This document shows, one piece after another, positions 3,052 through 51,779 of a stretch of 64,000 bases of DNA (position 1 is its first letter; the number at the start of each line of letters is the position of its first letter). This stretch comes from Acidimicrobiales bacterium AG-414-N20 (GTDB lineage: Bacteria > Actinomycetota > Acidimicrobiia > Acidimicrobiales > MedAcidi-G1). The stretch is from positions 1 to 64,000 of the forward strand of contig QCLO01000001.1 of assembly GCA_003214465.1 (NCBI GenBank), read 5' to 3'. The notes under the pieces are model-generated. The model made no database searches, was not told where the DNA came from, and saw nothing but the letters and a program-made list of their open reading frames with translations. Position numbers and translations under genes: made by a program.

Positions 3052-3121
3052 GAGATCAAAACAAAACTAACTCAGCACTGTTCAAGGTGACGATAGTCTT
3101 TAAACACAAAGAAATGATTTA

Positions 3122-3199
3122 GCCCCCGTAGCTCAGTCCGGACAGAGCAGCGGACTTCTATTCCGCTGGCCGCAGGTTCGAATCCTGCCGGGGGTGCCA
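3122..3199 (+). tRNA. tRNA-Arg (anticodon TCT), CCA encoded
   Basis: Acceptor GCCCCCG pairs with CGGGGGT, the anticodon stem GCGGA/TCCGC encloses loop CTTCTAT, and the T arm GCAGG/CCTGC encloses TTCGAAT. Discriminator G is followed by an encoded CCA. Confidence 0.95.
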
Positions 3200-3246
3200 A
3201 CCTGCGGATCCCTCCATGACATGCGTGGAACTTCTAATCTGAAAGT

Positions 3247-3669
3247 ATGTCGTTTGGAAAAGATCGTTACCTTTTCATAAAACCGGATCTACGCATTCCA
3301 GTATCAGAAGTCATTTGGCGTTTTAATCCTTCGGGCGGACCAGGTGGTCAGCATGCAAATAAGTCGAATACGCGTGTTGAAGCAGAACTAGTGATAGACC
3401 AATTAACTGAAATAGATGATCAAATAAAAAATCTTCTTATGAAAAAACTTGGATCCTCAGTCAGAGTTATTGAAGACTCAACTCGATCGCAAAATAGGAA
3501 CAGAAACAGAGCACTGCAGCGAATGGAAAAAATTCTTATTACAGCTCTCCACGTTGAGAAAAAAAGAAAACCTACTAAACCAAGTCGTAAATCAAACGAA
3601 AAGAGACTGGAAGTTAAAAAACGCCGATCTGATTTAAAAGCTGATCGGAAACCTCCAGAATTAAACTAG
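3247..3669 (+). CDS. arfB: Alternative ribosome-rescue factor ArfB/YaeJ (peptidyl-tRNA hydrolase)
   Basis: A 140-residue class-I release-factor-like protein. The GGQ catalytic motif is at residues 33-35 within SGGPGGQHANKSNT, the standard ArfB context that hydrolyses the ester bond of peptidyl-tRNA on stalled ribosomes. As in the family, there is no codon-recognition domain; instead the last ~40 residues are rich in Lys and Arg, the tail that in known ArfB enters the empty mRNA channel. Start ATG 3247 gives the expected family length. It follows tRNA-Arg by 47 bases and ends 7 bases before the convergent amidase gene. Confidence 0.93.
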   Translation: MSFGKDRYLFIKPDLRIPVSEVIWRFNPSGGPGGQHANKSNTRVEAELVIDQLTEIDDQIKNLLMKKLGSSVRVIEDSTRSQNRNRNRALQRMEKILITALHVEKKRKPTKPSRKSNEKRLEVKKRRSDLKADRKPPELN

Positions 3670-48612: not shown

Positions 48613-49326
48613 ATGAAGATGACTCTTGAAGTAACTGATAGCAATTTTGAAAAAGAAGTATTAGAACGCTCAGAAAATACCCCAGTAATAGTTGATCTTT
48701 GGGCACCATGGTGTGGTCCGTGTAAAAGCCTAGGTCCAATACTTGAAAGAGTTATTGAAGAAACAAATGAAAAGGTTGTTCTCGCCAAGGTGAACATAGA
48801 TGAAAACCCCGGTGTGGCAGGAGCATTTAAAGTTCAGTCAATTCCAGCTGTTTTCGCAATACATAATAAAGATGTCGTTAGTAGTTTCGTTGGGGCGCAA
48901 GGCGAAGACGCCGTAAGAGATTTCGTCCAGCAGCTTTTACCATCAGAAGAGATGACAGAACTAGAGAAACTGATCAGCGATGGAGACGAGTCATCACTTA
49001 GAAAGGCTCTAGAAATAGAGGTAGATAATCCGACTGCCATTACGAGTCTTGCTCAACTCCTGGTGAGAAGAAATGAAGACGGAGACAAAGAAGAGGCGGT
49101 GAAACTTCTTGAAAAAATACCTGAGACTCCTGAAACAAGAAGAGTGTTAGCAATAGCACGTCTCGAAAATGTAGGCGACATTGATTTAGAACTAACTGAA
49201 TTAATTGAGAAAGTAAAAATAGATGAAGGGGCTAGAGATCGATTTATCGATCTGCTTGAATTATTAGGCCCTGATGATCCCAGAACAAGTGAATGGCGGC
49301 AACGTTTAACATCCGCTCTTTTCTAA
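48613..49326 (+). CDS. Thioredoxin-TPR protein (CnoX/YbbN type)
   Basis: The N-terminal thioredoxin domain has the WCGPC active site with C34 and C37. Residues ~110-237 form helical TPR-like repeats (EEAVKLLEKIPETPETRRVLAIARLEN). E. coli CnoX is a chaperedoxin that protects and passes clients to GroEL; there the second Cys is absent, but here both cysteines are present, so redox activity is likely. The ATG at 48613 lies 72 bases after the divergent kinase gene. It overlaps the next frame by 34 bases. Confidence 0.88.
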   Translation: MKMTLEVTDSNFEKEVLERSENTPVIVDLWAPWCGPCKSLGPILERVIEETNEKVVLAKVNIDENPGVAGAFKVQSIPAVFAIHNKDVVSSFVGAQGEDAVRDFVQQLLPSEEMTELEKLISDGDESSLRKALEIEVDNPTAITSLAQLLVRRNEDGDKEEAVKLLEKIPETPETRRVLAIARLENVGDIDLELTELIEKVKIDEGARDRFIDLLELLGPDDPRTSEWRQRLTSALF

Positions 49327-49787
49327 AAGACAGAAAGCAAACAACTGTGGTTAAAGATATGAAAATTGAGGTTCCGGCAGTAGAAGGTTTTTTCACTATT
49401 GAGGAAGAAGCACATTTAATAGGCGGTCGTTTTAAAAGGTCTGGAAGTTATTGTTTCCCTAAAGATCTTGGAGGTTCTGATCCCAATTTCCCTGAAGATG
49501 AAGTGGAAGAAGTTCTTTTAAGTAGATTTGGAAAAATTTGGTCCTACACAAATAGTGCATATCCACCACCACCACCGTTTATAGCAGCGGAACCCTATGA
49601 GCCTATTGTCATTGCTGCAGTAGAATTAGTAAAAGAAAAAATGGTGATACTTGGCCAAGTAGTGAATGGTTATGCAGTTGAAGATTTAAGTGTAGGCATG
49701 ACTGTTGAAGTAGCGGTTGGGACTTTGTATGAAGATTCTGAGCGCCGGTATTTAACTTGGATGTGGAAGCCATTGTCTGAAGAGTAG
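49293..49787 (+). CDS. DUF35 OB-fold protein lacking the zinc-ribbon cysteines
   Basis: A 164-residue protein of the DUF35 (acyl-CoA-associated OB-fold) type: VPAVEGFFTIEEEAHLIGGRF, then FGKIWSYTNSAYPPPPPF and an OB barrel ending YLTWMWKP. In usual members the segment after HLIGGR is CxxCGxxxFPPxxxCPxC; here it is FKRSGSYCFPK, with only one Cys, so the zinc site is lost. DUF35 proteins form complexes with thiolase-like lyases (for example ChsH2 with Ltp2, BbsA with BbsB); the next gene is such a thiolase. The start could be ATG 49359 instead, removing a 34-base overlap with the thioredoxin gene. Confidence 0.85.
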   Translation: MAATFNIRSFLKDRKQTTVVKDMKIEVPAVEGFFTIEEEAHLIGGRFKRSGSYCFPKDLGGSDPNFPEDEVEEVLLSRFGKIWSYTNSAYPPPPPFIAAEPYEPIVIAAVELVKEKMVILGQVVNGYAVEDLSVGMTVEVAVGTLYEDSERRYLTWMWKPLSEE

Positions 49788-49807
49788 AAACAGGATAAGA
49801 ATTAGAA

Positions 49808-50995
49808 ATGGAAGATATAGCAATTTTGGGAGTCGGAATGCACCCATGGGGTAAATGGGGCCGTAATTTTGTTGAATATGGAACCGTTGCCGCAAAGAAG
49901 GCTTTAGATGATGCTCAAATCGAGTGGAATGAAGTCGGTTTCATTTCTGGAGCGATAACAGTCCGATGTGGATATCCCGGTTATGTCGCAGGGTCAACTA
50001 TGGCTCGTGCCCTGGGTTTTAACGGCACTCAAGTGGCCAGTTCCTATGCAGCCTGCGCCTCGGGCGCCACTGCTCTTTCTGTAGCTCGCGGTCAAATTCT
50101 TTCAGGTGCATGTAATGTGGCTCTAGTTGTTGGAGCTGACACCACGCCAGATGGTTTTCTAGCTCCAAATGACGGAATTAGAACTGATGACACCGATTGG
50201 CTTCGCTTTCACATGGTGGGAGCAACTAACCCTGTCTATTTCGGTCTGCATGCGAGACGACGCATGGAATTGTATGGAGCGACTCAGGAAGATTTCGCGT
50301 TGGTCAAAGTGAAAAACAGTAAACACGCTGTTTTCAACGAAAACGCACGATTCAACAAAGAGTACGCATTGGAAGATGTTTATAGCTCTCCCGTCGTATC
50401 TGATCCTTTGAGACTTTTAGAGATATGTACAACAAGTGATGGCGGTGCAGCACTCGTAGTTTCTTCTCTCGATTACGCCAAGTCGTTAGGCGTGTCCGAC
50501 CCGGTTCGAGTCTCAGCTATTGCTTTAAATACTCCTACTTACCCCGATCCTTTAATAGACCTACCTTATTTAGCAACTGATTCCTCAGCGACCACCCTTC
50601 CAAGCGAAACGGGGTTCAAGGAGTCAATAGGAAAACATGTTTACGAGGAAGCAGGGGTCGGTCCAGAAGATATAGATGTTGCTGAAGTGTATGACCTGGC
50701 ATCTTCCATGGAACTCGACTGGTACGAACAGCTTGGTTTCTGTAAAGCCGGCGAAGCGGAGAACCTTTTACGAGATGGGAGTACTTCGATCGGAGGAAGA
50801 ATTCCTGTGAATCCAAGTGGGGGACTCGGAGCATTTGGAGAGGCTGTTCCAGCTCAAGCAATTGCTCAAGTGTGTGAACTTAACTGGCAACTTTCTAATC
50901 GAGCGGGAAAGCGACAAGTCGAAGGTGCCAGAATTGGTATTACAGCAAATCAAGGTCTTTTTGGACACGGTTCTTCAGTCTTGCTTAGAAGATAG
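49808..50995 (+). CDS. Thiolase-like acyl-CoA lyase/lipid-transfer protein
   Basis: A 395-residue thiolase-fold protein. The acyl-accepting Cys C83 is present in YAACASGATALSVARG. The catalytic His of GHP is replaced by Glu (E345 in NPSGGLGAFGEAVP) and the second Cys of the C-terminal CxG loop is absent (ANQGLFGHG). The enzyme is therefore probably not a classical thiolase but an aldolase- or synthase-like partner of the DUF35 protein upstream (20-base gap), as in Ltp2-ChsH2. Degradation of a branched or cyclic acyl-CoA is possible. Confidence 0.87.
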   Translation: MEDIAILGVGMHPWGKWGRNFVEYGTVAAKKALDDAQIEWNEVGFISGAITVRCGYPGYVAGSTMARALGFNGTQVASSYAACASGATALSVARGQILSGACNVALVVGADTTPDGFLAPNDGIRTDDTDWLRFHMVGATNPVYFGLHARRRMELYGATQEDFALVKVKNSKHAVFNENARFNKEYALEDVYSSPVVSDPLRLLEICTTSDGGAALVVSSLDYAKSLGVSDPVRVSAIALNTPTYPDPLIDLPYLATDSSATTLPSETGFKESIGKHVYEEAGVGPEDIDVAEVYDLASSMELDWYEQLGFCKAGEAENLLRDGSTSIGGRIPVNPSGGLGAFGEAVPAQAIAQVCELNWQLSNRAGKRQVEGARIGITANQGLFGHGSSVLLRR

Positions 50996-51035: not shown

Positions 51036-51779
51036 ATGTCAGTGCACGAAACCATAGATGATGGGGTAGCGATTTTGACTATGGACAATCCGCCCGTTAA
51101 TGCACTTAATGTAACTGATGCATACTTCATTGCTGAAAAGATCTGTTCGTATAGTAGTCAACAAAAAGATGATGTAAAAGTTGTTTTGCTTCGGTCCTCT
51201 GGGAATGGCTTCTGTGCGGGAGTTGATATTAAAGAGATACAAGACCTTCCAGGAAATGAAGGAATTTTGAAAGCTAATCATTCTTGTTATGAATTGTTTG
51301 ACGCTATACATAACTCAAAAATACCTGTTATAGCAGTAGTAGATGGTCACTGTTTGGGAAGTGGAATTGGGATAGCCGGTAGCGCTGATGTTGTTATAGC
51401 CTCCAGCGATGCCACTTTTGGTCTACCAGAAGTAGACAATGGAGCTCTAGGAGCTGCTAGCCATCTTATGCGTTTGGTTCCTCCTCAGAAAGCAAGATGG
51501 ATGCTCTATACATGTGAGACTGCAACTGCGCAAGAGTTATTTTCTTATGGGTCAGTTCTTAAAGTAGTAGAAAGTGAGGAACTTGAAGACACTTCACTAG
51601 AAGCTGCTAGGAGGATCGCGGGAAAGAATGGAACATTAATACAAGCAGCAAAAGCCTCATTAGACGGTATTGAAGAAACAAATCTTTCAAAGCGTTACCG
51701 CTTAGAACAGGGTTACACATTTGAGATGAACCTTATGGGACTAGGCGATAAAGCTCGCGACGCATTTTTGGATAAATAA
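51036..51779 (+). CDS. Enoyl-CoA hydratase/isomerase (crotonase) family protein
   Basis: A 247-residue crotonase-fold protein with oxyanion-hole segments RSSGNGFCAGVDIKEI and DGHCLGSGIGIAGSADVV; FGLPEVDNGALGAASHL follows. The classic catalytic Glu pair is only partly matched, so hydratase, isomerase or hydrolase activity is open. It lies 40 bases after the thiolase-like gene with an ATGAGGTG ribosome site. Confidence 0.9.
   Translation: MSVHETIDDGVAILTMDNPPVNALNVTDAYFIAEKICSYSSQQKDDVKVVLLRSSGNGFCAGVDIKEIQDLPGNEGILKANHSCYELFDAIHNSKIPVIAVVDGHCLGSGIGIAGSADVVIASSDATFGLPEVDNGALGAASHLMRLVPPQKARWMLYTCETATAQELFSYGSVLKVVESEELEDTSLEAARRIAGKNGTLIQAAKASLDGIEETNLSKRYRLEQGYTFEMNLMGLGDKARDAFLDK

Follow-up and report, generated by a model that had tools for sequence, protein, structure and literature searches.

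Two adjoining genes in the window, a stretch of 64,000 nucleotides (positions 1 to 64,000 of contig QCLO01000001.1, assembly GCA_003214465.1) from Acidimicrobiales bacterium AG-414-N20, encode a DUF35-type protein and an SCP2-type thiolase-like protein that almost certainly belong to steroid catabolism. Gene context assigns this pair to the steroid C/D-ring (HIP) part of the pathway, an assignment that is new here, and the pair probably acts in that part. That it constitutes a C-C cleaving enzyme of C/D-ring catabolism with a non-classical active site is a proposal to which we give about even chances.

The window lies on contig 1 of a 1.8-Mb genome in 59 contigs with a completeness of 85%. The thiolase-like protein reached 651.5 bits with the NCBIfam model NF004715 ('lipid-transfer protein', curated cut-off 424) and is thus a member of this family, which occurs in Actinomycetota, Pseudomonadota and Myxococcota. 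Its nearest named relatives come from Acidimicrobiaceae and other actinobacterial metagenome-assembled genomes (MAGs), and across the genus of the window the thiolase reading frames are intact with 92-95% identity. Pfam recognizes the thiolase N- and C-terminal domains in this protein and the OB domain alone in its partner (34.1 bits, gathering score 27.1).

Genomic linkage to steroid C/D-ring catabolism

We aligned 132 loci in all. Fifty-two of them were found by whole-protein or profile searches, independent of active-site motifs (L056 and L029 being one gene, L056 was left out), and the other 80, named loci, by the peptide patterns FGEA[VI]PAQ and NQGLFGHG. Eight loci represent the same genomes twice (L068-L071, L074, L075, L078, L079) and were removed for the counts of gene order (72 loci) and of DUF35 partners (122 rows); L111 and L134 gave no DUF35 match. 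The DUF35 gene lies alongside the thiolase gene in all 52 motif-independent loci and precedes it in 130 of the 132.

Reference proteins of the HIP pathway were taken from locus L166 and named by homology and order, after Table 1 of PMC5380842. In this locus ipdA and ipdB encode CoA_trans proteins (PF01144), ipdC an NMO/FabK-like protein and echA20 a PRK07938 protein; the locus also has an acyl-CoA synthetase, acyl-CoA dehydrogenases and a PRK07801 thiolase, and L119 contains a similar second set. At least one gene of this pathway is located within about 6 kb of the pair in 40 of the 72 de-duplicated named loci. At least one of ipdA, ipdB, ipdC and echA20 is near the pair in 34 loci and at least three of these four in 16. 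The order in a Nevskia locus (L147) is ipdA-ipdB-DUF35-thiolase-ipdC-echA20-fadE31-fadE32, and a placement between ipdB and ipdC recurs in several taxa. On a Pseudomonadales contig the stretch between ipdB and the DUF35 gene (L143:1606-5353) encodes two proteins related to each other, each of about 600 amino acids; one of the two was scanned and matched no NCBIfam family at 1e-40.

Three genomes of the window's own genus (G003, G004, G005) carry the order ipdA-ipdB-ipdC-fadE31-fadE32, with identities to L166 of about 63, 53-54, 61-62, 52-53 and 40%, respectively. DUF35, thiolase and echA20 were not found in the 20-kb ipd stretch of these genomes, and the three genes missing from this operon are the trio that adjoins in the window. 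A FadA6-like locus in the genome of the window (contig C4) was also scanned for HIP neighbours and showed only a FadE31-like protein (37% identity).

Among 396 genomes of the phylum, 34 exceeded the cut-off for NF004715, 37 that for the EchA20-type model NF005925 and 34 that for the Ltp2 model NF005892; a protein of G225 falls under the NF004715 cut-off at 396 bits. All 34 genomes with the thiolase carry an EchA20-type gene (Jaccard index 0.92, versus 0.74 with Ltp2), and in 12 of them the two share a contig, at a distance of up to about 35 kb. The thiolase was present in five of five genomes that have EchA20 and no Ltp2 over the cut-off, and in neither of two with Ltp2 and no EchA20. The co-occurrence has a P of 4.7e-46 with kinship ignored, the 34 genomes representing 19 genera by hand count, with nine genomes in g83 and seven in g71. 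Within g71, G210, G285, G372 and G407 have neither NF004715 nor NF005925 over the cut-off. One genome of the window's own family, G016, has an IpdAB-type pair and no thiolase.

A matrix built from the 19 KstR sites printed in PMC1995591 was used to scan 129 loci for operators. KstR-type operators were detected directly upstream of the pair in eight of nine Mycobacterium-like loci (genus g83, 23.9-28.5 bits) and in all six Nocardioides loci (22.6-29.9 bits), with scores exceeding all 60 shuffles of each; the matrix scan found no such site in the remaining Mycobacterium-like locus, L038. Operators of L052, L121 and L128 stand out as well. In L121 and L128, uncultured bacterial contigs outside Nocardioides and the Mycobacterium-like group, they are strong (about 22 bits) and lie upstream of the DUF35 gene, and the thiolases of these two group in the tree with that of L132, a Myxococcia MAG.

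In the Mycobacterium-like loci polA is located upstream and divergent. The order polA-DUF35-thiolase is also that of Rv1628c and Rv1627c in Mycobacterium tuberculosis, with a KstR-type site between, and PMC1995591 lists this candidate site between Rv1628c and Rv1629 without an electrophoretic mobility shift assay. Because of the divergent polA upstream and the site in this intergenic stretch, Rv1627c/Rv1628c are very probably this pair, as judged by gene order and reported annotation. For Rv1627c on cholesterol there is only a genome-wide prediction, as cited in PMC6429209 and PMC8856561. According to the figure legends of PMC6678751, Sphingomonas KC8 and Sterolibacterium encode a lipid-transfer protein or acyltransferase and a thiolase subunit next to IpdAB/IpdC-like genes. 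These genes, annotated as 'lipid-transfer protein' and 'benzoylsuccinyl-CoA thiolase', hold the same operon place as our pair, and by gene order and reported annotation they and Rv1627c/Rv1628c probably represent the same family. In PMC6895838 such a gene pair is listed in a steroid cluster, its role being given as not known. We found no assigned function for NF004715/PRK06059, Rv1627c or Rv1628c in the literature searched, which left subscription journals mostly outside.

Several observations weigh against the assignment to C/D-ring catabolism. No PF01144 (IpdAB) match was obtained in the genome of the window, which we ascribe to its incompleteness because all eight congeners have this family. 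The EchA20-containing genomes G326, G336 and G351 are without such a thiolase, and the Comamonas testosteroni steroid cluster, as described in PMC6895838, is without the pair. G326, G336, G351 and the Comamonas cluster indicate that the pair is replaceable. Furthermore, the mycobacterial operator is of the KstR type (side chain, rings A/B) and not of the KstR2 type, and the pair is absent from the KstR2 table of PMC5380842. In the window itself, the matrix scan revealed no KstR-like site.

Active site of the thiolase and zinc site of DUF35

The predicted structure of the thiolase-like protein (predicted template modelling score, pTM, 0.86) has the thiolase fold, with Z scores of 43-47 to SCP2 and archaeal thiolases. 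The individual values are 47.3 for BbsB, 46.9 for zebrafish SCP2-thiolase, 46.8 for the archaeal thiolase, 41.7 for Ltp2 and 39.8 for Sal. In phmmer alignments G344-E345-A346 meets the GHP motif of zebrafish SCP2-thiolase gap-free; likewise E345 meets the GHP/GHA-type His of BbsB and the archaeal thiolase, and Y295-D296 the HD motif. The initial annotation had described Glu in place of the GHP His, and these alignments to three thiolases together with the GEA in all 52 motif-independent loci bear this out. It was also right that the second catalytic Cys is gone, N381-Q-G383 standing at the place of the C-terminal CxG. A further change escaped it: the HDCF motif, to which the acid Cys of SCP2-type thiolases belongs (PMC12329534), has lost both its His and its Cys and reads YDLA (Y295-D-L297). 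The retained Cys83 and the steroid-ring context were overlooked as well.

C83, YD, GEA and NQGL.GHG are kept in 52 of 52 motif-independent loci, and the altered site is therefore not due to chance. Over all 132 aligned loci C83, Y295, D296, E345, N381, G383 and H387 are invariant, whereby the invariance of E345 and H387 is partly built in among the 80 named loci because these were chosen by the patterns given above. Relatives with normal thiolase sites, envisaged in the initial annotation as counter-evidence, were not encountered among the 132; the altered site is family-wide.

In hhalign comparisons with 21 Ltp2 proteins YD falls on YD and GEA on GEA, and the protein shares the YD motif with Ltp2 at an NF005892 score of 146.8 bits, below the cut-off of 469. 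With 6ok1 numbering counted from the alignment, E345 pairs with Glu342 and V347 with Tyr344, the second catalytic Tyr of Ltp2. As far as can be read from the alignments, the family site is a hybrid of aldolase and thiolase features, since two Ltp2 features are shared, both known aldolase acids are gone and the thiolase nucleophile is kept.

The genome of the window encodes further proteins of these types. A second DUF35-thiolase pair on contig C40 (L149:3552-4718 for the thiolase) has the nucleophile Cys, QD for HD and GEP for GHP, while its DUF35 protein (3112-3543) retains Cys-x2-Cys motifs; Glu at the GHP place is thus not unique to the pair described here. On contig C18 (L151:7810-10626) a DUF35 gene is followed by two tandem thiolase-like genes, the first of which (363 amino acids) encodes a protein with strongly degenerate active-site motifs. 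Contig C27 (L148:8422-11124) carries a ChsH2-like MaoC/DUF35 fusion (507 amino acids) and then an Ltp2 ortholog (628 bits with NF005892; YDHF, GEAY, nucleophile Cys absent), and according to these sequence features the small genome also encodes a steroid side-chain aldolase.

The zinc site of the DUF35 partner is lost: none of the four Cys ligands is present (Table 1). According to the initial annotation one of the four Cys had been kept. The loss itself stands, whereas C54 belongs to a non-ligand column occupied by F, C, V, Y or A in most relatives. A misalignment hiding an intact site was ruled out, as the whole protein has a single Cys. A complete Cys4 site is present in 62 of the 122 de-duplicated partners and incomplete in 60 (L090, misaligned across the zinc stretch, was scored as lost). 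Eight changes of zinc state are required on the thiolase tree, at least three of them forced by strongly supported branches. On this reconstruction the zinc loss appears later than the altered thiolase site, and recurrent. Hence, of the two changes for which the initial annotation had asked whether a clade shares them, the thiolase site characterizes the whole widespread family, and the zinc loss occurred repeatedly. The further idea that both changes, linked in one pair, signify an altered reaction does not hold, as the thiolase site is invariant while about half of the partners keep Cys4. The idea that a lost zinc site points to altered chemistry was accordingly rejected; the loss is uninformative on the reaction because the thiolase site is constant whichever zinc state the partner has.

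The zinc-less DUF35 protein is predicted with a local distance difference test score (pLDDT) of 90 and a pTM of 0.78. Its model matches BbsA (Z 13.7, residues 24-162), the archaeal DUF35 (13.2), ChsH2 DUF35 (10.9) and Shy DUF35 (10.2). The annotated start overlaps the end of a thioredoxin/tetratricopeptide repeat gene (49293-49326). We consider the ATG at 49359 the likelier start, because residues 1-20 are poorly predicted and unconserved.

Table 1. Positions in the window of the pair, its site residues and the adjoining crotonase gene
Feature	Position	Strand	Remarks
DUF35-type partner (OB_ChsH2_C, PF01796), 164 aa, zinc ligands lost	49293..49787	+	
Former zinc-ribbon segment	49431..49490	+	Ligand positions F47 (49431-49433), S50, G61, F66 (49488-49490)
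C54, sole Cys of DUF35 protein, non-ligand position	49452-49454	+	
SCP2-type thiolase-like protein, 395 aa	49808..50995	+	NCBIfam NF004715 (PRK06059)
Cys83, nucleophile position retained	50054..50056	+	
Tyr295-Asp296 (YD motif) where SCP2-thiolases have HD; aligned to catalytic Tyr of Ltp2 YDHF	50690..50695	+	
Glu345 replacing GHP His; aligned to Glu of Ltp2 GEAY	50840..50842	+	
N381-Q-G-L-F-G-H387-G, C-terminal active-site loop with invariant His, replaces CxG	50948..50971	+	
EchA20-type crotonase, third gene of trio	51036..51779	+	NF005925/PRK07938, 312.7 bits, cut-off 260

Comparison with known DUF35-thiolase systems

The steroid side-chain aldolase Ltp2-ChsH2(DUF35) (PDB 6ok1) resembles the pair in its SCP2-thiolase fold, its DUF35 partner, the YD with catalytic Tyr, the GEA and its place in a steroid pathway. 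In Ltp2 the Tyr of YDHF is the base and Tyr344 the acid (PMC12329534). In contrast, our protein has kept Cys83, lacks the HF of YDHF and has Val at the Tyr344 position, and its DUF35 partner is stand-alone and not MaoC-fused. The bile acid aldolase Sal-Shy(DUF35) (PDB 9myr) likewise combines a YD motif with a DUF35 partner. Sal uses Tyr302 as base and the catalytic Cys304 (YDCY) and has Gly at the nucleophile position (PMC12329534), where the present protein has Cys83, with Leu297 at the place of Cys304. The zinc site of Shy DUF35 is also altered, to Cys3His (PMC12329534), whereas here the ligands are wholly lost.

The benzoylsuccinyl-CoA thiolase BbsAB (PDB 7pxp) is the best structural match of both subunits and has the nucleophile Cys in common with the pair, but BbsB retains HD and GH, and BbsA is among the Cys4 zinc DUF35 homologues (PMC12329534). 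The closest DUF35 by sequence (1.3e-7) is that of the archaeal acetoacetyl-CoA thiolase/DUF35/HMG-CoA synthase complex (PDB 6esq). Its DUF35 is also stand-alone beside a thiolase; unlike the pair, the complex has normal thiolase HD and GH motifs and HMG-CoA synthase as third enzyme.

Possible reactions of the pair

We suggest that the pair forms a DUF35-thiolase-fold complex of HIP catabolism which would be made together with the EchA20-type hydrolase from the adjoining gene. By analogy with Ltp2-ChsH2(DUF35) and Sal-Shy, DUF35 would flank the thiolase-fold dimer and give the substrate channel its shape, here presumably in a zinc-free form. As first choice we consider a retro-aldol cleavage of a beta-hydroxyacyl-CoA, in which Tyr295 would be the base, Glu345 would lie near the enolate and Cys83 may be structural or a proton donor. 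Whether retro-aldol or thiolysis, the reaction would take place late in the pathway, near MOODA-CoA. In PMC5380842 the fate of delta2-MOODA-CoA is called unclear; for C. testosteroni, PMC6678751 names ScdN as the hydratase of the 2-ene. Provided that the pair acts in the C/D-ring part, retro-aldol chemistry falls slightly short of an even chance. The initial annotation had proposed that the reaction differs from thiolysis and that the enzyme might be an aldolase acting on an unusual acyl-CoA. The aldolase part is plausible in view of the YD shared with Ltp2 and Sal and the GEA shared with Ltp2; the exclusion of thiolysis is less secure, as thiolysis by Cys83 is a serious rival.

Three points count against retro-aldol cleavage. 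Cys83 never varies, yet an aldolase can do without the nucleophile of a thiolase. V347 at the position of the Ltp2 acid Tyr344 and Leu297 at that of Sal Cys304 and Ltp2 His296 leave no obvious acid but Glu345. A retro-aldol cleavage would yield an aldehyde, and the annotated neighbours included no aldehyde dehydrogenase.

A true C-C thiolase of the same pathway is somewhat unlikely in our view. The substrate would be an alpha-methyl beta-ketoacyl-CoA such as 2-methyl-3-oxoadipyl-CoA, which would yield propionyl-CoA and succinyl-CoA; an acyl group would pass from it to Cys83, and Tyr295, Glu345 and His387 would stand in for the usual His, His and Cys. SCP2-type thiolases accept alpha-methyl substrates. 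The invariance of Cys83 in 132 of 132 aligned proteins fits such a reaction, as do the structural matches, which are best to true thiolases (BbsB, zebrafish SCP2-thiolase, archaeal) above Ltp2 and Sal; the pathway needs a thiolase, too, the identity of which is called less clear in PMC5380842. Yet neither of the catalytic His nor the acid Cys typical of the class is left in any protein of the family, and a thiolase operating with Tyr and Glu at those places is not known to us.

An action on the sterol side chain, as an aldolase like Sal or Atf1-ChsH4 of Mycolicibacterium neoaurum, would agree with the KstR-type operator in actinobacteria, the YD motif and the stand-alone DUF35 partner, which is also present in Atf1-ChsH4 (PMC10398937). 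We regard it as improbable in view of the location of the pair within ipdAB-ipdC operons, the Sphingomonas KC8 and Sterolibacterium counterparts adjoining IpdAB/IpdC genes (PMC6678751 legends) and the five genomes with pair and EchA20 that have no Ltp2 over the cut-off. Still more improbable is a non-enzymatic carrier or scaffold for CoA esters of the pathway, as the NCBIfam name and the loss of the standard catalytic residues might suggest; C83, Y295, D296, E345, N381 and H387 show the invariance expected of catalytic residues, and Ltp2 bears the same kind of name yet is an aldolase. Decay of the pair in a streamlined genome, with zinc-site and active-site loss as degeneration, was rejected despite the small genome size, given the intact thiolase frames throughout the genus, an altered thiolase site that is invariant across phyla and a confident DUF35 model matching DUF35 structures.

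The pair is real and conserved, has no assigned function as far as the searched literature shows, and probably belongs to steroid ring catabolism. The finding matters chiefly because it places the pair in a pathway, so that a late step becomes testable. Tentatively, we propose that the pair is the late C-C lyase still missing from bacterial steroid catabolism. It would act on a MOODA-derived acyl-CoA and add a third mechanistic class to the thiolase fold, with Cys83 beside the aldolase Tyr-Asp, Glu and the invariant His387. That the zinc site of DUF35 was lost repeatedly suggests that a functional complex can do without the metal. The open end step of steroid ring catabolism has with this pair a named candidate, also in Mycobacterium-type genomes (probably Rv1627c/Rv1628c). 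If the proposal is true, a thiolase fold with its nucleophile kept and both His changed to Tyr and Glu would be another way to break C-C bonds.

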